A stretch of DNA of 21,111 bases. Source: Bacteroidales bacterium (lineage in GTDB: Bacteria; Bacteroidota; Bacteroidia; Bacteroidales; JALTDM01). Made by a program: the position numbers and the translations under genes. Positions 6,285-21,111 of the stretch are shown one piece after another; the first letter of the stretch is position 1; every line of letters starts with the position of its first letter. The stretch covers positions 1 to 21,111 of the forward strand of contig JALWKH010000137.1 in the NCBI GenBank assembly GCA_026996635.1, read 5' to 3'. A model generated the notes under the pieces. That model had not been told where the DNA came from. It saw only the letters and a list, made by a program, of their open reading frames with translations, and did not search any database.

Positions 6285-6334
6285 CAAGGGAGGAAACAGA
6301 GCTTCTCCCCTTGAGGGGAGATACAGAGGGGTGA
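6285..6334 (+). repeat. Dispersed repeat, uninterrupted copy
   Basis: It contains CAAGGGAGGAAAC, then the hairpin CTCCCC-TTGA-GGGGAG (6305-6320), then ATACAGAGGGGTGA. A second copy at 14845-14918 is identical in the outer parts but carries 24 extra bases in the hairpin. Confidence 0.7.
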
Positions 6335-6385
6335 AAAAATCATACTGTATTTCAATTCATTGCCGACCGAAAAAAATTAAAGTGA

Positions 6386-6513: not shown

Positions 6514-6529
6514 TATGTGAAAAAGTGTG

Positions 6530-6537
6530 TATATTTG
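6530..6537 (+). promoter_or_regulatory. -7 box of the tetR-efflux operon
   Basis: TATATTTG matches TAnnTTTG and ends 4 bases before ATG 6542. Transcription would start at or within a few bases of the start codon, implying a leaderless or nearly leaderless mRNA, or use of the TTG at 6563. Confidence 0.6.
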
Positions 6538-6541
6538 CAGT

Positions 6542-7153
6542 ATGGATAAAGAGCAAGAAATATTGGAAAAAACCTTTAAGTTGTTTTGTCGTTACGGCAT
6601 TAAGAGTCTCACTATGAGTGATATTGCCTCCAACTTGCATATCTCCAAAAAGACTCTTTACAAGTATGTTTCCGATAAGCACGATTTGGTAAAGAATGTT
6701 TTTTTGAATTTGGAACATCATCATAAGTTCATAAATACTTCCCTACTGAACGGTAATGCCATTGAGCAATTTTATCAAGTGTCCCGCAAAGTGATGGGAA
6801 TGATTAAGCAAACGAATATGCATATGCTCTTTGACCTGAAAAAATATTACCCTGATGTTTATGAAGAAATTCAAGTAAGAAGGCAAAAGGCTATTGTGAA
6901 GAATGTATCTGAAAACATTAAAGCTGGTCAAAAAGATGGCTTGTACCGCAAAGAAATAAATCCCGAATTGGTTGGAGAGTTGTATTTTCTAAAAACCAAT
7001 GCTTTGATAGACAGCGATTTTGTTAATTCGGGGAAATACACACTGAAAGAAATTTTCGTGGAATTGTTCAAATATCACATTCTTGGTATTTGTACCGAAA
7101 AGGGAAGGAAATTTTTAGAAAACTTTAAAATTTTTGAAGACGATGAAGTTTAA
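6542..7153 (+). CDS. TetR-family transcriptional regulator of the efflux operon
   Basis: The 203-residue protein has an N-terminal TetR helix-turn-helix (about 5-52: ILEKTFKLFCRYG, TMSDIASNLHISKKTLYKYV with the typical KKTLYKYF-like recognition helix, then KHDLV). A helical ligand and dimer domain follows. It most likely represses its own operon until a pump substrate binds. ATG 6542 is chosen; TTG 6563 would still keep most of the helix-turn-helix and would give an ordinary leader behind the -7 box. A 12-4-12 palindrome lies just upstream. Its 3' end overlaps the next gene by 11 bases, so the two are translationally coupled. The ligand cannot be inferred. Confidence 0.9.
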   Translation: MDKEQEILEKTFKLFCRYGIKSLTMSDIASNLHISKKTLYKYVSDKHDLVKNVFLNLEHHHKFINTSLLNGNAIEQFYQVSRKVMGMIKQTNMHMLFDLKKYYPDVYEEIQVRRQKAIVKNVSENIKAGQKDGLYRKEINPELVGELYFLKTNALIDSDFVNSGKYTLKEIFVELFKYHILGICTEKGRKFLENFKIFEDDEV

Positions 7154-8492
7154 ATTTTTCATATTAATGGTTTATTTGTTGGCATCTGTAATTGCTTTTT
7201 CGCAAGAAACCGATACAGTTTACACCTTGTCTTTGGAACAAGCCCAACAACTCGCTTTGCAGCGGAATAAGACCGTGCTAAATTCGGAATTGGACATTAT
7301 TAAGGCAAAAAAGAAAATTTGGGAAACCACTGCAATAGGACTACCGCAAGTAAACGGCAGTATCTCACACAATTACAACATAGATTTACCTGTAACTCTT
7401 ATGCCGGCACGGATTTTCAATCCGCAAGCGCCACCCGGAACATATATGGAAATGAGATTCGGAACGGAGCACAATACAAAAGCCGGGCTTACCGTATCGC
7501 AATTGATTTTCAGCGGACAATATTTGGTCGGCTTGCAAACTACAAAGGTTTTTAAGCAACTTGCCGAAACCAAAAGCAAGCAAACCCAAAGGGATATAAA
7601 ATATTCCGTAGCCCAAACTTATTACCTTGTGCTTATTACTGCCGAAAACAAAAAGATTATTGACAGCAATTATGTATTTGTGAAAAAACTGTATGAAGAC
7701 ACCAAGAAAATGTATGAAGCGGGATTTACCGATGAAGCTACCCTCAAACAAATGGAACTTAACAAGACTAATTTGGAAAATGCTCTGAACACGGTTGCCC
7801 GCCAGTATGAAGTGGCTAAAAACCTTCTCAAATTTCAAATAGGTCTGGACTTAAGTTCAAAAATAGTGCTTACAGGCAGCCTAAATGATATGGATAATGA
7901 GCCCGATCAGGCAAACAAACTGATAAACAGCGAAATTGACCCGGAGCAGACTTTGGATTATCAACTTGTGGAGACACAAGAAAAGTTGCAACAGTTAGCG
8001 GTAAAGAATGAAAAAGCGACTCTGCTGCCTACCGTTTCTGCTTTTTACAACCACCAAGAAAGTATGATGGGCGACGAAATAAAGTGGTTTGACGAAGACG
8101 GCAAATGGTATAAAGCCAACATTGTCGGGTTCAACATCAATATTCCCATTTTCGGCAGCGGACAAAAACTTGCCAAAATTTCGCAGGCAAAAATCGAATT
8201 GGAAAAAACAAGAAACCAAAAGTGGATGATGAAGCAAAACCTTACTTTGCAAATTTTACAGGCAAAAGTAAAACTCCAAAACGCCCTTGAAAAATACACT
8301 TCGCAAAAGCAAAACAAAGAACTTGCCCAATTCATTTACAACAACACCAAGCAAAAATACCTGAAAGGTATGGCAAGCAGTATGGAGCTCACACAGGCAC
8401 AAATGCAATATTTCACAACCCTGCAACAATACTATCAAGCTATATTGGAATATTGGAACGCAAAGAATGAACTGGAGAAGATGGTTGAATAA
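7143..8492 (+). CDS. TolC-family outer-membrane efflux channel
   Basis: The 449-residue product starts with a signal peptide (cut probably after AFS before QET). Two outer-membrane-efflux repeats follow: long helical segments such as LSLEQAQQLALQRN, the SQLIFSGQYLVGLQ strand and NIPIFGSGQKLAKISQAK, ending in YNNTKQKYLKGMASSMELTQAQ and a final helix. This is the trimeric duct that takes substrates from the inner-membrane pump across the outer membrane. The ATG at 7143 lies inside the end of tetR; an upstream in-frame TTG is less likely because ATG 7143 gives a normal signal peptide. It belongs with the adaptor and pump genes downstream, from which it is now separated by a small inserted gene. 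Confidence 0.93.
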   Translation: MKFKFFILMVYLLASVIAFSQETDTVYTLSLEQAQQLALQRNKTVLNSELDIIKAKKKIWETTAIGLPQVNGSISHNYNIDLPVTLMPARIFNPQAPPGTYMEMRFGTEHNTKAGLTVSQLIFSGQYLVGLQTTKVFKQLAETKSKQTQRDIKYSVAQTYYLVLITAENKKIIDSNYVFVKKLYEDTKKMYEAGFTDEATLKQMELNKTNLENALNTVARQYEVAKNLLKFQIGLDLSSKIVLTGSLNDMDNEPDQANKLINSEIDPEQTLDYQLVETQEKLQQLAVKNEKATLLPTVSAFYNHQESMMGDEIKWFDEDGKWYKANIVGFNINIPIFGSGQKLAKISQAKIELEKTRNQKWMMKQNLTLQILQAKVKLQNALEKYTSQKQNKELAQFIYNNTKQKYLKGMASSMELTQAQMQYFTTLQQYYQAILEYWNAKNELEKMVE

Positions 8493-8505
8493 TGTGTTAA
8501 TGTGA

Positions 8506-8525
8506 TAATTAGTTAATGTGCTAAT
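8506..8525 (+). repeat. Left inverted repeat of the four-helix-bundle element
   Basis: It carries the 13-mer TTAATGTGCTAAT (8513-8525), found again inverted at 8935-8947 and in the same orientation at 13484-13496. It sits 13 bases after the tolC stop codon. Confidence 0.8.
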
Positions 8526-8563
8526 GAAAAAATGTGTTAATGAATTAAAACGGAAATAAGAGG

Positions 8564-8911
8564 ATGGGAAAAGATAATGCGATATTGAATAAAAGTTTTG
8601 AGTTTGCTTTAAAAATCATTGAATTTGCTGAATATCTTGAGAATAAACATAAATATGTGATAGCAAAACAGATATTAAGATCAGGAACATCAATAGGAGC
8701 AAATGTAAGGGAAGCTCAAAGTGCCGAAAGCAAAGCAGATTTTATTCATAAACTTAAAATAGCTGAAAAAGAATTGAATGAAACGGAATATTGGTTATTG
8801 CTATGTAAGCATTCGGAAAATTACCCGAGTCCAAACAATTTATTGGATGAAGTTATAGAAATGAAAAAATTGTTAAGTGTAATAATCAGCAGTAGTAAAA
8901 AGAACACTTGA
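8564..8911 (+). CDS. Four-helix-bundle protein of the S23/23S rRNA IVP family
   Basis: The 115-residue helical protein carries the family signature LRSGTSIGANVREAQSAESK, then ADFIHKLKIAEKELNETEYWL. Homologues are encoded inside 23S rRNA intervening sequences, as stand-alone genes, and more distantly as the Avd proteins of diversity-generating retroelements. They form small, often pentameric, helical bundles thought to bind nucleic acid; the biological role is unsettled. AAGAGG directly before ATG 8564 may serve as its ribosome binding site. It interrupts an otherwise standard tolC-adaptor-pump operon and is flanked by inverted repeats. No reverse transcriptase or variable repeat is nearby, so a retroelement role is not supported. 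Nothing suggests a part in efflux. Confidence 0.9.
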   Translation: MGKDNAILNKSFEFALKIIEFAEYLENKHKYVIAKQILRSGTSIGANVREAQSAESKADFIHKLKIAEKELNETEYWLLLCKHSENYPSPNNLLDEVIEMKKLLSVIISSSKKNT

Positions 8912-8934
8912 ATGTGTCGAGATATAATTAGCAA

Positions 8935-8954
8935 ATTAGCACATTAATGAATTA
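8935..8954 (-). repeat. Right inverted repeat of the four-helix-bundle element
   Basis: ATTAGCACATTAATGAATTA is the near-complement of 8506-8525 (18/20). It lies 23 bases after the four-helix-bundle stop codon and 20 bases before the adaptor ATG. Confidence 0.8.
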
Positions 8955-8974
8955 GCAAATTAAAATAAATAATT

Positions 8975-10030
8975 ATGAAAAAGATTTTTTTGTTGATTGC
9001 GATAATCGGAGTAATCGGGGCGGGGTGCAAGAACGGAAATGAAACTGGAAACGATAAACAAACCGCACAAGTAGAACAAGCCAAAATACCCGTTAGGATA
9101 CAAAAGGTCGTAAAAAAGCCGTTTAGTCATTTTGTTGAGACTTCGGGCAATGTGGAAGCCGTGAATTGGGCATTTATTTCGCCCCAAGCCAACGGGCAAG
9201 TAATCAAGGTAAATGTAAACGAAGGCGATTATGTGGAAAAAGGACAAGTGCTGGTTGAATTGAACGATGCCATTATCAGAAAAAATATTGCCGAACTGCA
9301 AACTCAACTTGACCTTGCGAAAATCACTTACGAAAAGCAAAAATCACTTTACGAACAAAAAATCGTAAGCGAGATTCAATATTTGCAGGCAAAAACACAA
9401 AAAGAAGCATTGGAAAAGAAATTGGAAGTGCTGAACGAGCAATTGAGCTACACCAAAGTTACCGCACCATTTGCGGGAACAATTGAAAACATACAGATAA
9501 AAGAAGGTGAAATAGCAGCTCCCGGCAGGCAACTTATGCAGCTTTACAACCTTGACTTGCTGAAAATTAAAGCCGATTTGTCCGAAAAATATATATCGAG
9601 CATAAAAAAAGGCGATACAGTTCTTGTGCATTTCGACAACTTGCCTATGCAAGACTTAAAACTTCCCGTTTACCGCATCGGCAGTGTGATAAATCCAAGC
9701 AACAGAACATTTAAAATTGAGTTGCGACTGGCCAACAAAGACAAACTTATAAAGCCAAATATGGTAGCAAGGCTCAAAATAGAAGACTACAGCAATCCCG
9801 AAGCTATTGTAGTGCCTACTCCCGTTGTGAAAAAAGACTTCGAAAAGGAATTTCTTTTCATTGCCAAGAAAGTGAAAGGTAAACTCGTTGCCAAAAAAGT
9901 GTATGTGAAGACCAATATGTCTTACAACGGATTTACTGAAGTTGTGGAAGGCTTGAACGAGGGTGATTTGCTGATCACGGAAGGATATAACGAAGTGGCA
10001 GACAATTCGTTGATAGAAGTTTTAAAATAA
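8975..10030 (+). CDS. HlyD/AcrA-type efflux periplasmic adaptor lipoprotein
   Basis: The 351-residue protein bridges the RND pump and the TolC-like channel. A lipobox ends in IGAGC with Cys18 as the acylation site, so it is anchored to the inner membrane. Next come the first biotinyl-lipoyl half (FISPQANGQVIKVNVNEGDY, about 67-86), a coiled-coil hairpin (about 95-155), the second lipoyl half (YTKVTAPFAGTIENIQIKEG), a beta-barrel (about 190-270) and a membrane-proximal domain to the end. It is followed after 13 bases by the pump gene. Its upstream region is the inverted-repeat element, not an obvious promoter, so expression probably depends on readthrough from tolC or on RNA processing. Confidence 0.94.
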   Translation: MKKIFLLIAIIGVIGAGCKNGNETGNDKQTAQVEQAKIPVRIQKVVKKPFSHFVETSGNVEAVNWAFISPQANGQVIKVNVNEGDYVEKGQVLVELNDAIIRKNIAELQTQLDLAKITYEKQKSLYEQKIVSEIQYLQAKTQKEALEKKLEVLNEQLSYTKVTAPFAGTIENIQIKEGEIAAPGRQLMQLYNLDLLKIKADLSEKYISSIKKGDTVLVHFDNLPMQDLKLPVYRIGSVINPSNRTFKIELRLANKDKLIKPNMVARLKIEDYSNPEAIVVPTPVVKKDFEKEFLFIAKKVKGKLVAKKVYVKTNMSYNGFTEVVEGLNEGDLLITEGYNEVADNSLIEVLK

Positions 10031-10043
10031 AACCGGAATAAAG

Positions 10044-13000
10044 ATGAGTCAAGATAAAAAAGTAAAAAGAGAGTTTTTTCTTACGAATATTGCCCTTGGG
10101 AACAAAACTTCTATGTTCCTGCTGGCATTGATTATTTTGGGATTCGGTATTGTAGCTTATCAAAATATGCCGAAAGAATTATTTCCCGAAGTGAATATGC
10201 CGTACATAATGGTGCAAACCACATATCCGGGCAATTCGCCAATTGATATGGAAAAACTCGTAACCAAACCGCTTGAGAAAGAAATAGACGGCATAAAAGG
10301 CATTAAAAATATCACTTCCACTTCAATGCAAGATGTCTCCATTATAACCATTGAGTTCGATTTTAAGACCGACCTTTCAAGGGCGTTGCAAGATGTAAAA
10401 GATGCCGTGGACAAAGCCAAACCCGATTTGCCGACCGACTTGCCGCACGACCCTCTGGTAAAGGATATCGATTTGTCGGAGTTCCCTTTTATAAATGTGA
10501 ATCTTTACGGGGATTTCAGTCTCGACGAGCTGAAAAAATATGCCGATAAGCTGGAAGATAAGTTTGAAGAAATACCTGAAGTTTCCAAAGTGTCGGTGCG
10601 GGGAATCAATGACAAAGAGATTCAAATCAATGTTGACCCCGATGCAATGGAAGCCGTTCAAGTCAGCTTCAATGATATAGAAAATGCCGTAAAGCAAGAA
10701 AATATTGCTATGTCCGGCGGCGACATTAAGGTAAACGGGCTTCAACTTTCGTTGAGAATAGACGAGCAGTTTCACAATGTAAACCAAATAAAAAACCTTA
10801 TTGTAAAGCACCAAAACGGCAATATCGTTTACCTGAAAGATATTGCGGAAGTGAAAGAAACTTATGCAGAACCTAATAGTATTGCAAGACTTAACGGTAA
10901 TCCCGTTTTGTCCGTTCAATTGGTGAAAAAAACAGGCGAAAACCTTCTTGATGCTACCAAGCAAGTTTACAAAATCCTTGACGAAGCCCGCCAAAAGCAT
11001 ATTATTCCTTCCAACCTGAAAATTGCAATTACAAACGACCAATCTGACCTTATCAAAAAGCAACTCAGCAATCTGGAAAATTCAATGGTGATAAGCATAT
11101 TCTTTGTTGTTGTTGTGCTTTTCTTGTTCTTGGGCTTGCGAAACGCTTTGTTCGTAGGGCTTGATATTCCGCTTTCGATGTTTCTTTCCATTGCCGTATT
11201 GTCGCTTATGGATTACAAAATCAATATGGTGGTTTTGTTCTCGTTGATTCTTGCTCTCGGTATGCTTGTGGACAATGCCATTGTGATAGTGGAGAACATC
11301 TACCGTATGTTTACCAAAGACAATTTGCCGATAAAAGAAGCCGCAAAGCAAGGTGCGGGAGAAGTTGCCATTGCCGTTATTTCTTCTACCGCTACCACAC
11401 TTGCAGCCTTTTTCCCGCTGCTGTTTTGGGATTCCATTATGGGTAAATTTATGCAATTGTTGCCTATCGTGCTTATTATTGTTCTTTCGTCGTCTTTGTT
11501 CGTGGCACTGGTAATTATGCCGGTGTTTTCCAATACATTTTTGCGAAAAGAAGAAAAATTTGCACCTGCCAAAAAGCAGTTGATAATTGCGGGGGCTGTA
11601 CTTTTGCTTGCTCTACCGTTTTACTTTACGGGAAATTTTATGCTTGCCAATCTTTTGGCTACAATAACATTATTGCTTCTGCTGAATGTGCTTTTTCTGC
11701 AAAAACTCGGTATTTGGTTCAAAGATGTATTTCTCTCCAAGCTCGAAATTTGGTACTCAAAATCAATAGAATGGTCAATGCGGGGCAAAAATCCGTACAT
11801 AGTTTTCTTGCTTACACTTTTGTTGCTTGTTTTTACCCAAATTCTAATGAAAGTAAGAGCTCCCGAAAAGATTTTCTGGTCACAATCAGATCCGAATTAC
11901 ATCAACATAAAATTTGAGGTTCCGGTTGGTCACAACATTTATTACACGGATGATTTTTCAAAAAAAATAGAAAAGAAAGTAAATGAAATACTGGCACCGC
12001 ACAAAGACATTGTGAAATCAGTTCTCACTAATATCGGCAAAGGTGCAAAAACAAAAGGTAAATTGGGTCAAGCACCGGAAGTTACGGGGCCTAATCACGG
12101 ATTGATAACAGTTAGTTTTGTTGATTACGAATACCGTAACGGGGTGAGCACATCTGACATAATGAAACAAATCTCGGACAGTTTGGTGCACAGCTATCCC
12201 GGCGTATCGTTTGACATTTCGCAAGACGAGAAAGGTCCGCCGATGGGTTCGGCAGTAAGCATTGAAATTTTCGGTGAAGATTACAATACTTTGATGAGTA
12301 TAGCAGATTCAATGGAGATTTTGATAAAAAAAGCCGGCATACAAGGCTTGGAAGGACTTAAGGTTGACCTTGTAACGGGTAAGCCGGAACTTATTGTAAA
12401 AATTGACAGGGAAAAAGCCCGCAGGTTCGGGTTGAGTACAGCTCAAGTAGCTATGGCTATCAGAACTGCCCTTTTCGGAAAAGAAGTGTCAAAATTCAAA
12501 GTCGGTGATGACGAATACCCTATTGAGGTAAGGTTTAAAGAGAAATACAGAAACAACATTGATAATTTGATGAATCAAAAAATCACTTTCCGTAACAGGC
12601 GCGGTAAGATGATGCAAATACCTATTTCTTCAATAGCTTCGGTAGAATACAATACTACTTATGACGGCATAAAACACAAAAACCTTGACAGGTACATTAC
12701 TTTGTCGTCGAATGTGGTAAAGGGCTTCAATTCAAACAAGATAAACGATAAGATAAAAGAAGTGTTGAAAGACTTCAAATTGCCGGTGGGTTACTCGTAC
12801 AAGTTTGCGGGTAAGCAAGAAGACCAGCAAAAGACTATTGACTTTATGAAACACGCTATGTTGGTGGCAATATCGCTTATAATGCTTATTCTGGTGTCAC
12901 AATTCAATTCTGTCGTTAAGCCGTTTATTATTTTTATCAGTATAATTTTCAGTACGATAGGTGTGTTTTTGGGAATTGCGCTTACCAAAATGGATTTTGT

Positions 13001-13454
13001 GATTGTGATGAGCGGAATAGGAATTGTTTCACTTGCTGGAATTGTGGTGAATAATGCCATTGTGCTCATAGATTACATTGATTTGCTGAAAAAAAGACGC
13101 AGGAAAGAATTGGGGTTGCCCGAAGATGCTTTTTTACCCGTGCCGGAAGCTACCAAGTGCATAATAGAAGGCGGTAAAACAAGGTTGAGACCGGTATTGC
13201 TTACTGCGATTACCACTATTTTGGGCTTGCTGCCGATGGCAATGGGAATCAATATCAATTTCAAAGAATTGTATTACCATTTTGACCCGCATCTGTATTG
13301 GGGCGGAGATATGGCAGCAATATGGTCTCCTTTGGCTTGGACGGTGATTTTCGGTCTTACATTCTCTACATTCCTGACACTCATCGTAGTGCCGGCTATG
13401 TATCGTATTGCAACCAATATCGAAAAGGTTTTCAGGGATAGGAGAGGGAAGTGA
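10044..13454 (+). CDS. RND-family (HAE1/AcrB-type) efflux pump
   Basis: The 1136-residue inner-membrane transporter exports hydrophobic compounds using the proton gradient. It shows the RND pattern: N-terminal TM1, ELFPEVNMPYIMVQTTYPG, a first periplasmic loop, then TM2-TM6 with ALGMLVDNAIVIVEN. D410 matches AcrB Asp407, and Asn411 replaces Asp408, as in many HAE1 relatives. The second half ends with AGIVVNNAIVLIDY and RLRPVLLTAITTILGLLPMA. Between TM6 and TM7 (about 511-555) lies an extra very hydrophobic segment that could add two membrane helices. It is the last gene of the efflux cluster, 13 bases after the adaptor. Substrates cannot be read from sequence. Confidence 0.95.
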   Translation: MSQDKKVKREFFLTNIALGNKTSMFLLALIILGFGIVAYQNMPKELFPEVNMPYIMVQTTYPGNSPIDMEKLVTKPLEKEIDGIKGIKNITSTSMQDVSIITIEFDFKTDLSRALQDVKDAVDKAKPDLPTDLPHDPLVKDIDLSEFPFINVNLYGDFSLDELKKYADKLEDKFEEIPEVSKVSVRGINDKEIQINVDPDAMEAVQVSFNDIENAVKQENIAMSGGDIKVNGLQLSLRIDEQFHNVNQIKNLIVKHQNGNIVYLKDIAEVKETYAEPNSIARLNGNPVLSVQLVKKTGENLLDATKQVYKILDEARQKHIIPSNLKIAITNDQSDLIKKQLSNLENSMVISIFFVVVVLFLFLGLRNALFVGLDIPLSMFLSIAVLSLMDYKINMVVLFSLILALGMLVDNAIVIVENIYRMFTKDNLPIKEAAKQGAGEVAIAVISSTATTLAAFFPLLFWDSIMGKFMQLLPIVLIIVLSSSLFVALVIMPVFSNTFLRKEEKFAPAKKQLIIAGAVLLLALPFYFTGNFMLANLLATITLLLLLNVLFLQKLGIWFKDVFLSKLEIWYSKSIEWSMRGKNPYIVFLLTLLLLVFTQILMKVRAPEKIFWSQSDPNYINIKFEVPVGHNIYYTDDFSKKIEKKVNEILAPHKDIVKSVLTNIGKGAKTKGKLGQAPEVTGPNHGLITVSFVDYEYRNGVSTSDIMKQISDSLVHSYPGVSFDISQDEKGPPMGSAVSIEIFGEDYNTLMSIADSMEILIKKAGIQGLEGLKVDLVTGKPELIVKIDREKARRFGLSTAQVAMAIRTALFGKEVSKFKVGDDEYPIEVRFKEKYRNNIDNLMNQKITFRNRRGKMMQIPISSIASVEYNTTYDGIKHKNLDRYITLSSNVVKGFNSNKINDKIKEVLKDFKLPVGYSYKFAGKQEDQQKTIDFMKHAMLVAISLIMLILVSQFNSVVKPFIIFISIIFSTIGVFLGIALTKMDFVIVMSGIGIVSLAGIVVNNAIVLIDYIDLLKKRRRKELGLPEDAFLPVPEATKCIIEGGKTRLRPVLLTAITTILGLLPMAMGININFKELYYHFDPHLYWGGDMAAIWSPLAWTVIFGLTFSTFLTLIVVPAMYRIATNIEKVFRDRRGK

Positions 13455-14807: not shown

Positions 14808-14844
14808 AAGTGCAAAAATTCGGCCTCACCCACCTAACCTCCCT

Positions 14845-14918
14845 CAAGGGAGGAAACCTAAATTCTCCCCTTGAGAGCCTGCACTGAACAGGTTTCAGTG
14901 GGAGATACAGAGGGGTGA
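14845..14918 (+). repeat. Dispersed repeat, copy carrying a 24-base insert
   Basis: The outer parts match 6285-6334 (CAAGGGAGGAAAC; CTCCCCTTGAG; GGGAGATACAGAGGGGTGA). Between TTGAG and GGGAG there are 24 extra bases (14876-14899). These include CACTGAA and TTCAGTG (14882-14888 and 14894-14900) as inverted repeats. GGTGACGAG then occurs twice (14914-14922, 14931-14939). Confidence 0.7.
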
Positions 14919-19459: not shown

Positions 19460-20494
19460 TCAAATCTTTGTAAGCCAGCCGTTTAATCCTTTTGATGACA
19501 GTTGTTTTCTAAAATAAAGTGCATCTTTTTTACTTTCAAACTTTCCGGCAATTACACGGTATAAACCTTTTACATATTTAATTTGTAAGTCTAAAGTGTT
19601 ATCATCGTGCTGGGCTTTAAACTTGTATGCATTGTCGCGGTTACTGAAAGCTCCCAATACTATGCCGTAATATTTTTTATTGCTGGATGATTTTACTTGT
19701 TTTTGTTGTGTTTGTTCTTCTTTTACTTTTGTTTGCAGGGTGGTTTGAGGAATAACTTGTTTAGTCGTATCTTTTTCTAGTGTTGTTTTCGTTGGTTGTG
19801 TAGCTTCTTGTCCTGTTTTTTTCTTTGTTATTCCGGGATAAAGAGCATTTTTTATGTTAAATGTTTTTTCTATGCCGTTAAGCATTTGCTTTTGTGACGG
19901 TTGCAGGTTATCGGTGTAAACCCTGTTGTGCAGGTTAAATGAATCTGCGAGTGATGCCTCGTTGGTGTTATGAGGCTTTGTGGGCATTAGAAGCAGGGAA
20001 ATAATCAAACTTGCAGCTGCAATATATTTTCTTGCTGTGGTATTTTTTACGGGGTGGCTTATTTTTAACCTGCGTTGTTTTAACTGTCCTGAATATACCG
20101 GCAGTTCTTCAAATCCGAATCGCTCTATTTCTTTTACAAACTCTGAAGGCATGTATTCAATGTGTTCTCCAACCTGTGATAAAGTTCCTATTATATCAAG
20201 TGAAACCTTTTTGTATTCTTTCAATGAATTTCTAATTGCTAAAATGAACGAATCTATGAGTTTTTTGGCTTCTTGAAAAGAGATGGAATTTAACTCGGAC
20301 AAGAAAAACAGAAATTCGGTATTGTTACATTTTAAGTTTTCGGAAAAATAAACCTTGAAAGTTGAAGGTATAAAGGTTTGGGTATCAGCATTAAAATGTG
20401 CCGGTATCTCTTCACAAATGAATCCGCCGATACCTTCCAAACAAACCTTTCCGGTTTTTAATAAATATGTAAATATCTGTTTTTCAATGCTCAT
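19460..20494 (-). CDS. HU-like domain / SPOR-domain membrane protein
   Basis: The 344-residue protein has two HU/IHF-like segments of the bacterial CCDC81 type in the cytoplasm (about 1-66, GKVCLEGIGGFICEEIPA; and 67-135, KEYKKVSLDIIGTLSQVG), one membrane segment (about 157-171), a low-complexity K/T/Q-rich linker (about 220-270) and a C-terminal SPOR domain (about 273-344: YYGIVLGAFSNRDNAYKFK, GLYRVIAGKFESKKDA). SPOR domains bind denuded peptidoglycan at division sites. A protein linking septal wall to a cytoplasmic HU-like module is typical of Bacteroidetes; the precise role is unknown. GGAGG 8 bases before the ATG and a -7 box at 20513-20520 fix the start. It converges on cobB. Confidence 0.88.
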   Translation of the reverse strand: MSIEKQIFTYLLKTGKVCLEGIGGFICEEIPAHFNADTQTFIPSTFKVYFSENLKCNNTEFLFFLSELNSISFQEAKKLIDSFILAIRNSLKEYKKVSLDIIGTLSQVGEHIEYMPSEFVKEIERFGFEELPVYSGQLKQRRLKISHPVKNTTARKYIAAASLIISLLLMPTKPHNTNEASLADSFNLHNRVYTDNLQPSQKQMLNGIEKTFNIKNALYPGITKKKTGQEATQPTKTTLEKDTTKQVIPQTTLQTKVKEEQTQQKQVKSSSNKKYYGIVLGAFSNRDNAYKFKAQHDDNTLDLQIKYVKGLYRVIAGKFESKKDALYFRKQLSSKGLNGWLTKI

Positions 20495-20719: not shown

Positions 20720-20727
20720 TATCTTTG
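20720..20727 (+). promoter_or_regulatory. -7 box of rplY
   Basis: TATCTTTG matches TAnnTTTG exactly. Transcription should begin around 20732, just before the leader stem at 20738. No clear -33 box at normal spacing. Confidence 0.65.
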
Positions 20728-20737
20728 CACCCCTGAA

Positions 20738-20787
20738 TTAAGTGTGATGGATAACTAGGCATTACAGCCTAAAAGAGTAACACTTAA
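20738..20787 (+). ncRNA. Structured rplY leader resembling 5S rRNA loop E
   Basis: TTAAGTGT (20738-20745) pairs with ACACTTAA (20780-20787). TAGGC (20756-20760) pairs with GCCTA (20767-20771) around ATTACA. Between the stems, GATGG (20746-20750) faces AGAGTA (20774-20779), both directly adjoining the outer stem. In bacterial 5S rRNA the loop E strands are GAUGGUA and GAGAGUA, the binding site of L25. The gene behind this leader encodes L25. I infer an autoregulatory L25-binding site. The structure ends 13 bases before the ATG, so bound protein could block ribosomes. Confidence 0.6.
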
Positions 20788-20800
20788 AAATTTTACAATT

Positions 20801-21111
20801 ATGGAAAGATTAAAAATTAAAGCACAAGTAAGAAAACCGGGCAGAAAAGAAGCTGCCAGACTGAGAAAAGAACTTATGGTTCCTTGTGAATTGTACGGCT
20901 ATTCGTTAGATGAAAATCTTCATCTCGCCGTTAAAGAAGTTGATTTGAACAAGCTTATTTTTACTCACAAGGCTTACATTGTTGAATTGGATGTCGACGG
21001 AAAGACTTATGAAGCAATCTTGCAAGACATCAGCTACCATCCGGTAAGCGATAAACCTTTGCATGCAGACTTCTTGAATGTTACTCAAGACAGACCTGTT
21101 AAGATGAAAGT
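20801..21111 (+). CDS. rplY: Ribosomal protein L25 / general stress protein Ctc (partial)
   Basis: Only the first 103 codons lie in the window; the gene runs off the right edge. The product begins MERLKIKAQVRKPGRKEAA, then LRKELMVPCELYG, and has YEAILQDISYHPVSDKPLHADFL, the L25 signature that contacts 5S rRNA loop E. Residues 1-90 form the 5S-binding domain; the last visible residues (VTQDRPVKMK) open the C-terminal beta domain of the longer Ctc-type proteins. Basic residues at the N-terminus fit RNA binding. It has its own promoter and a structured leader, and diverges from the SPOR gene. Confidence 0.92.
   Translation, partial: MERLKIKAQVRKPGRKEAARLRKELMVPCELYGYSLDENLHLAVKEVDLNKLIFTHKAYIVELDVDGKTYEAILQDISYHPVSDKPLHADFLNVTQDRPVKMK

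Follow-up and report, generated by a model that had tools for sequence, protein, structure and literature searches.

Many Bacteroidales carry a conserved RNA hairpin directly before rplY, the gene for ribosomal protein bL25, and two strands of this hairpin match loop E, the bL25 binding site on 5S rRNA. The hairpin is best explained as an operator in the rplY leader through which bL25 would regulate its own synthesis, a reading to which comparative sequence analysis leads us to assign a probability of roughly 85%. We describe the element from the window (the whole 21,111-nt stretch of Bacteroidales DNA that was analyzed) and from related genomes. The relevant features of the window are as follows.

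20720..20727, forward strand: promoter-like -7 box TATCTTTG of the TAnnTTTG type, read from the sequence
20738..20745, forward strand: 5′ strand of the outer stem, TTAAGTGT, forming 8 bp with ACACTTAA in the minimum-energy fold
20742-20745, forward strand: GTGT, the part of the outer stem found family-wide (the 4-bp family stem)
20746..20750, forward strand: GAUGG, loop E-like 5′ strand, 5S positions 72-76 (the genome's own 5S has GATGGTA)
20751..20755, forward strand: AUAAC, extra internal-loop bases read from the sequence, unlike most leaders of the family
20756..20771, forward strand: inner hairpin TAGGC-ATTACA-GCCTA, from the fold; the family's inner helix varies yet pairs
20775..20779, forward strand: GAGUA, loop E-like 3′ strand, 5S positions 100-104 (the genome's own 5S has GAGAGTA)
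20780..20787, forward strand: 3′ strand of the outer stem, ACACTTAA, from the fold
20788..20800, forward strand: A/T-rich stretch leading up to the start codon, lacking both a Shine-Dalgarno-like sequence and a long U-run
20801..21111, forward strand: rplY (bL25), truncated where the window ends; PF01386 match with an E value of 2.2e-21, aligned with E. coli L25

The whole hairpin spans 20738-20787, with inner stem strands at 20756-20760 (TAGGC) and 20767-20771 (GCCTA). Its predicted minimum-energy fold is exactly the structure listed (-13.5 kcal/mol, z -2.15), and 9 of 200 shuffled sequences fold as well, so that as a single sequence the window folds only mildly better than chance. The pattern GATGG-N8..38-AGAGTA matches once in the window, where 0.11 matches are expected, and at least once in 10 of 100 shuffles. 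With a mild fold score and a pattern that recurs in shuffles, the window alone is weak evidence; the comparative data turn it into strong evidence. The initial annotation had named both stems, GATGG, and AGAGTA (which begins at 20774), and all are present where it put them and reproduced by the fold. Its identification of the downstream gene as rplY is confirmed by the PF01386 match and the start at 20801, and its remark that the internal loop is enlarged (10 + 8 nt), making the upper part an inexact copy, is borne out by the sequence.

The distribution of the leader was determined in 148 genomes sampled evenly across the window's order, all at least 90% complete except the window's own. A PF01386 match was present in 141 of them, with L25 genes split in two pieces merged for counting, and 139 were testable after removal of two genomes (G289 and G290) whose gene starts at a contig edge. 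The leader lies directly before rplY in 87 of the 139 and is absent in 52, a count in which a leader with a drifted core would score as absent. The total comprises 51 loci found by a strict pattern, 8 by model or relaxed pattern, and 28 by the covariance model R1. The strict pattern, GTGTRATGG-N8..38-RAGTARCAC, was searched genome-wide in the 148 genomes and gave 54 matches in 53 genomes, compared with 6 matches anywhere for a reversed control pattern. Fifty-one of the 54 share a strand with the L25 domain match and lie 22-67 nt upstream of it; the other three (G204, G234, and G019) are not beside rplY and were treated as chance.

This genome-wide tie to rplY bears on whether the hairpin might instead bind a different factor, such as a ribosomal protein other than bL25 or an RNA-binding protein of general function, or merely stabilize the mRNA. 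An ORF that we take to resemble pth closely follows rplY in L012 and L008, so the operon is not purely ribosomal, which gives this alternative some footing. We nevertheless consider it quite improbable in view of the tie itself, of the position of rplY as the first gene after the leader, and of loop E being the site of bL25.

The remaining members came from models and looser patterns. R1, built from 30 leaders, matched the leader in 29 of 73 further upstreams (E value of 0.003 or better, on the rplY strand); these were 72 from the order sample, which supplied 28 of the matches, and the genus relative G001. Two weak R1 hits were discarded, one on the wrong strand (L187) and one apparently within the end of the upstream gene (L195). 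Loci L003, L011, L016, L018, L022, L028, L029, and L030 are missed by the strict pattern and matched by the model with E values of 4.4e-4 or better. Across 30 L25 loci plus the window, the first regular expression found the motif in 18 of 31 and a relaxed one in 21, and L003 by model brought this to 22. One leader-less locus, L168 (G222:C71:3539-3703), was counted as such on a short upstream of 165 nt. There, at the contig edge, the 105 nt or so that precede the rplY start contain an apparent 5S gene end, GATGGTA...GAGAGTAGG, followed by a terminator-like hairpin, and this rplY may follow an rRNA operon.

Beyond the order sample, leaders were sought in a named set, the best 80 of a longer list of rplY loci from GTDB genomes, and occur in 16 of these 80 (15 by regular expression and L065 by model). 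The model was applied to the 14 distinct regular-expression positives and to two loci chosen by eye, L065 and L091. By NCBI ranks, 14 of the 23 Bacteroidales loci have a leader, as do 2 of the 9 loci to which no class is assigned. None of the 44 Flavobacteriales loci has one, and neither do the last 4 of the named 80, one each from Marinilabiliales, order-less Bacteroidia, Sphingobacteriales, and Ignavibacteria. L091 has a GTGTATGGG/GAGTAACAC variant that the search does not match. L065 and L175 have divergent leaders, GTGTGATGTGG or GTGTAATGTGG with TTTTTTAGTA on the 3′ side, and may represent decay of the element. In the rest of the phylum, none of 40 rplY upstreams sampled from 147 other genomes (at least one from each of 33 families, all outside the order) matched the leader model. 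When leader presence is mapped on a bL25 tree with 110 rows, of which 37 are leader-bearing, the label needs 3 changes, compared with a mean of about 31 in shuffles. This pattern suggests an old leader passed on by vertical inheritance, as judged from a quick FastTree tree in which 39 of 106 inner branches are weak.

For analysis of structure, 86 leaders (85 distinct) were aligned to a covariance model. Of 849 base-pair cells, 94.3% pair, and both-side changes occur in 9 of 10 pairs. Double-change cells number 141, compared with 35.3 ± 6.3 in shuffled alignments and at most 47 with partners slid, and the covariation score is 0.557 versus 0.251. The 4-bp outer family stem is paired in 97.6% of cells, with both-side changes in 3 of its 4 pairs and a nonstandard closing pair in 8 of 85 leaders. 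Because the alignment was itself fitted to the structure, the helix was tested again on bare sequences, free of the model alignment. An inner helix of at least 5 bp, ungapped near the core strands, occurs in 75 of the 86 leaders, compared with a mean of 34.9 (maximum of 45 in 500 swaps) when 3′ halves were swapped among leaders and a mean of 10.8 (maximum of 21) with shuffled inserts. The inner hairpin thus varies in sequence and keeps its pairing across the family, and the covariation that the initial annotation expected in the stems of related leaders is present in both. What precedes rplY is a conserved structured RNA with covariation in the presumed 5′ UTR, as looked for in r-protein leaders. 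The window copy is a divergent member, with the fifth lowest score among the 86 model matches (30.5 bits), an inner stem that is not flush with the core, and an insert helix of 2 bp at the default offset and 5 bp with larger offsets. The genus relative G001 (L214), in which the counterpart of AUAAC is AUAAU, is likewise divergent.

The sole 5S rRNA gene detected in the window's genome reads GATGGTA ... GAGAGTA at loop E, as had been assumed. We take the register of the loop E pairs to run from 72-104 to 78-98. The core strands correspond to loop E positions 72-76 and 100-104 of Bacteroidales 5S rRNA, in the same order and polarity and adjoining a helix. Of the 85 distinct leaders, 59 have GATGG and 23 have AATGG as their 5′ core; the 3′ core is GAGTA in 56, AAGTA in 13, TAGTA in 13, and AGGTA in 3. 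With the 5S numbering carried over, A73, U74, G75, G102, U103, and A104 are invariant (85/85), G76 is kept in 83, and A101 is kept in 82. Position 72 varies between G (60 leaders) and A (24), and position 100 among G (56), A (16), and U (13). The expectation that the two strands are conserved in related leaders was borne out, with the qualification that near-invariance is partly built in, since 55 of the 86 rows were found by patterns requiring most core bases and 31 by a model rewarding them. Neither the inner-helix pairing nor the specificity for rplY is produced by this core-based selection.

The mimic is partial. Positions 77/99 and 78/98 are usually replaced in the leaders by a G-U or Watson-Crick pair, so most leaders keep five pairs and not the full seven-pair motif GAUGGUA/GAGAGUA, and the two replaced pairs, U77-A99 and A78-G98, are described as universal in 5S rRNA in the relevant section of PMC7812874. 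The loop E mimic proposed in the initial annotation is therefore supported for five of seven pairs and for their order and polarity, and fails for 77/99 and 78/98 in most of the family. Two leaders keep more of loop E (GATGGTG/TAGAGTA in G205 and GATGGTA with AGAGTA in G253) and are a possible stepping stone between a full and a partial mimic. By eye, the bL25 of G205 (L113) has some extra residues near its N terminus.

Loop E of 5S rRNA could be read in 27 of the 30 L25 loci (26 credible readings by regular expression, 3 unread, and L267 reread after a spurious match). It has GATGGTA in 24 and AATGGTA in 3 on the 5′ side and GAGAGTA in 25 and AAGAGTA in 2 on the 3′ side, so the leader variant A72 (AAUGG) is also natural in 3 of 27 readable 5S rRNAs. 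Of the genomes with A72 in 5S, G203 and G022 have G72 in the leader and G007 has no leader; leader and 5S have not visibly coevolved. The leader model detects none of the 5S genes in the 30 loci, and its only two hits, both weak (E values of 0.34 and 1.3), lie outside the 5S gene. The idea that one model would recognize both leader and 5S thus failed, and the likeness accordingly goes no further than about ten bases, their order and polarity, and the adjacent helix. Resemblance to the protein's own rRNA site, which is common though not obligatory in r-protein leaders, is present here.

So short a likeness could be coincidental, with bL25 still regulating rplY through this leader and the protein, or its C-terminal domain, recognizing the hairpin in some other way. 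Such a coincidence would be in keeping with the loss of pairs 77-99 and 78-98 from most leaders, with only about ten bases shared, and with an E. coli operator that is seemingly recognized without an obvious loop E copy. We regard it as unlikely, because the fixed bases are loop E bases in register, beside a helix, on the mRNA of the loop E-binding protein; because the A72 variant recurs in 5S itself; and because a chance match to such a degenerate core has a frequency of about 6 in 10^6 per site (post hoc arithmetic).

The surroundings of the hairpin suggest how an operator at this position would act. The closest ORF upstream that we regard as a gene (19460-20494) runs on the opposite strand. 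Transcription of rplY is therefore expected to start independently, and the TAnnTTTG type of -7 box is the consensus of Bacteroidota promoters. Promoters and neighbors were compared in 104 upstreams (the 30 L25 loci, the window, and 73 fetched upstreams). A TAnnTT[T/C]G box is present in 50 of 51 leader-bearing upstreams versus 22 of 53 leader-less ones, and a certain upstream C terminus, identified by a crude regular expression and presumably that of prs, is present in 6 of 51 versus 33 of 53. These counts indicate that leaders accompany rplY's own promoter and that leader-less rplY often lies directly after prs. The promoter-like boxes also suggest that the leader region is transcribed.

Spacing was measured in 66 of the 86 leaders, those with a cut upstream sequence. 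The median distance from box end to core is 24 nt (in 65 of 66 leaders), and that from core end to ATG is 15 nt (66 leaders). A makes up 57% of the spacer between core and ATG; one of the 66 leaders has a Shine-Dalgarno-like word there, and three have a run of at least 5 T. This arrangement of promoter, motif, and start suits translational feedback in which a protein-clamped hairpin blocks ribosome loading. Because the hairpin sits between promoter and gene, it could in principle be a transcription attenuator or terminator; this is hardly credible, given that in 63 of 66 leaders the hairpin is not closely followed by a run of at least 5 T and that the conserved part is the internal loop and not a GC-rich stem.

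For the preferred reading, autoregulation by bL25, we propose the following course. Free bL25 would bind the loop E-like internal loop, in which [G/A]AUGG faces [G/A/U]AGUA, stacked on the outer stem. Bound protein would stabilize the hairpin, which ends some 15 nt before the rplY start codon, and block 30S loading. Newly made 5S rRNA would compete for bL25 and allow rplY to be translated, and excess bL25 would switch off its own synthesis. The choice of bL25 as ligand, the placing of control at translation and not transcription, and the competition by 5S rRNA are each inferred. It is quite probable that five of seven loop E pairs suffice for bL25 to recognize this leader, that the leader is old within Bacteroidales, that it is the first known r-protein operator to mimic 5S rRNA through a stack of non-Watson-Crick pairs, and that long two-domain bL25 is also autoregulated.

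In 30 loci, leader-bearing and leader-less together, bL25 is 186-239 aa long. Among 15 aligned sequences, leader-less species included, the invariant residues include R9, R21, Y31, H80, P81, and H88 (E. coli numbering), which fits a shared RNA site and is not specific to the leader. Chains close in sequence to these proteins were found by PDB sequence search in solved ribosomes (9i5t and 7jil).

Regulation of rplY by its product has precedent. bL25 binds 5S rRNA, and translational autorepression of rplY by L25 has been reported in E. coli and its relatives (PMC10931766). That leader has a weak GAGA Shine-Dalgarno sequence and, according to the passages of that article on L25, is confined to species with short bL25. 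Like the Bacteroidales leader, it has a hairpin in the 5′ UTR, ahead of the region where ribosomes bind to rplY. Three differences place the Bacteroidales leaders outside the gammaproteobacterial rplY leader family: the E. coli rplY region lacks a stem-flanked core (one AATGG and one GAGTA occur at L284 492-528, with no flanking pair); a Shine-Dalgarno-like word occurs in 1 of 66 Bacteroidales leaders; and E. coli bL25 is a short one-domain protein of 94 aa, in contrast to the long proteins of the 30 loci. Relative to 5S loop E and helix IV, the leaders share the GAUGG and GAGUA strands with their order, polarity, and stacking on a helix, whereas the flanking helices differ in sequence and 77-99 and 78-98 are usually missing. 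The principle that one protein site binds both rRNA and the protein's own mRNA is shared with the operators of L1, S8, S15, and L20, and none of these examples, as cited in the corresponding passages of PMC10931766, copies a 5S site. The comparative r-leader families of Eckert and Weinberg (2020; PMC7247131) include L13 and S4 leaders in Bacteroidia, and the L25 motif mentioned there is that of Enterobacteria. In the open-licence papers searched, no Bacteroidota L25 leader or 5S mimic was recognized, and L25 leaders appear in enterobacteria and their relatives only. Rfam 15 gave no match (E values up to 1) at the window hairpin or at the leader in 8 leader-bearing loci. The hairpin is best read as defining a new family of r-protein leaders, one that would join the rRNA-mimicking leaders already known.

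The element makes mimicry accessible in a compact and testable form: what leader and rRNA have in common is a predicted stack of non-Watson-Crick pairs, and the partial nature of the copy raises the question of which part of loop E bL25 requires. If the proposal is true, the cell has a direct means of adjusting bL25 to the amount of free 5S rRNA. It would also extend bL25 autoregulation to Bacteroidota, a phylum largely without Shine-Dalgarno-led initiation. Bacteroidales include common gut bacteria, and the share of carriers in the order makes the leader a natural Rfam family. Autoregulation would likewise be extended to long bL25, for which the L25 passages of PMC10931766 describe the known features as absent.

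Two further kinds of observation were made elsewhere in the window. Rfam family whalefall-1 has sub-threshold matches at 6301-6335 and 14822-14857 (20.5 and 19.7 bits, compared with a gathering threshold of 37), both of which are probably chance hairpins. An apparent RND-type efflux cluster occupies 6527-13454. Within it, between the outer-membrane efflux and membrane-fusion ORFs, lies a 115-aa ORF (8564-8911) that we take to resemble a 23S-intervening-sequence/four-helix-bundle protein.
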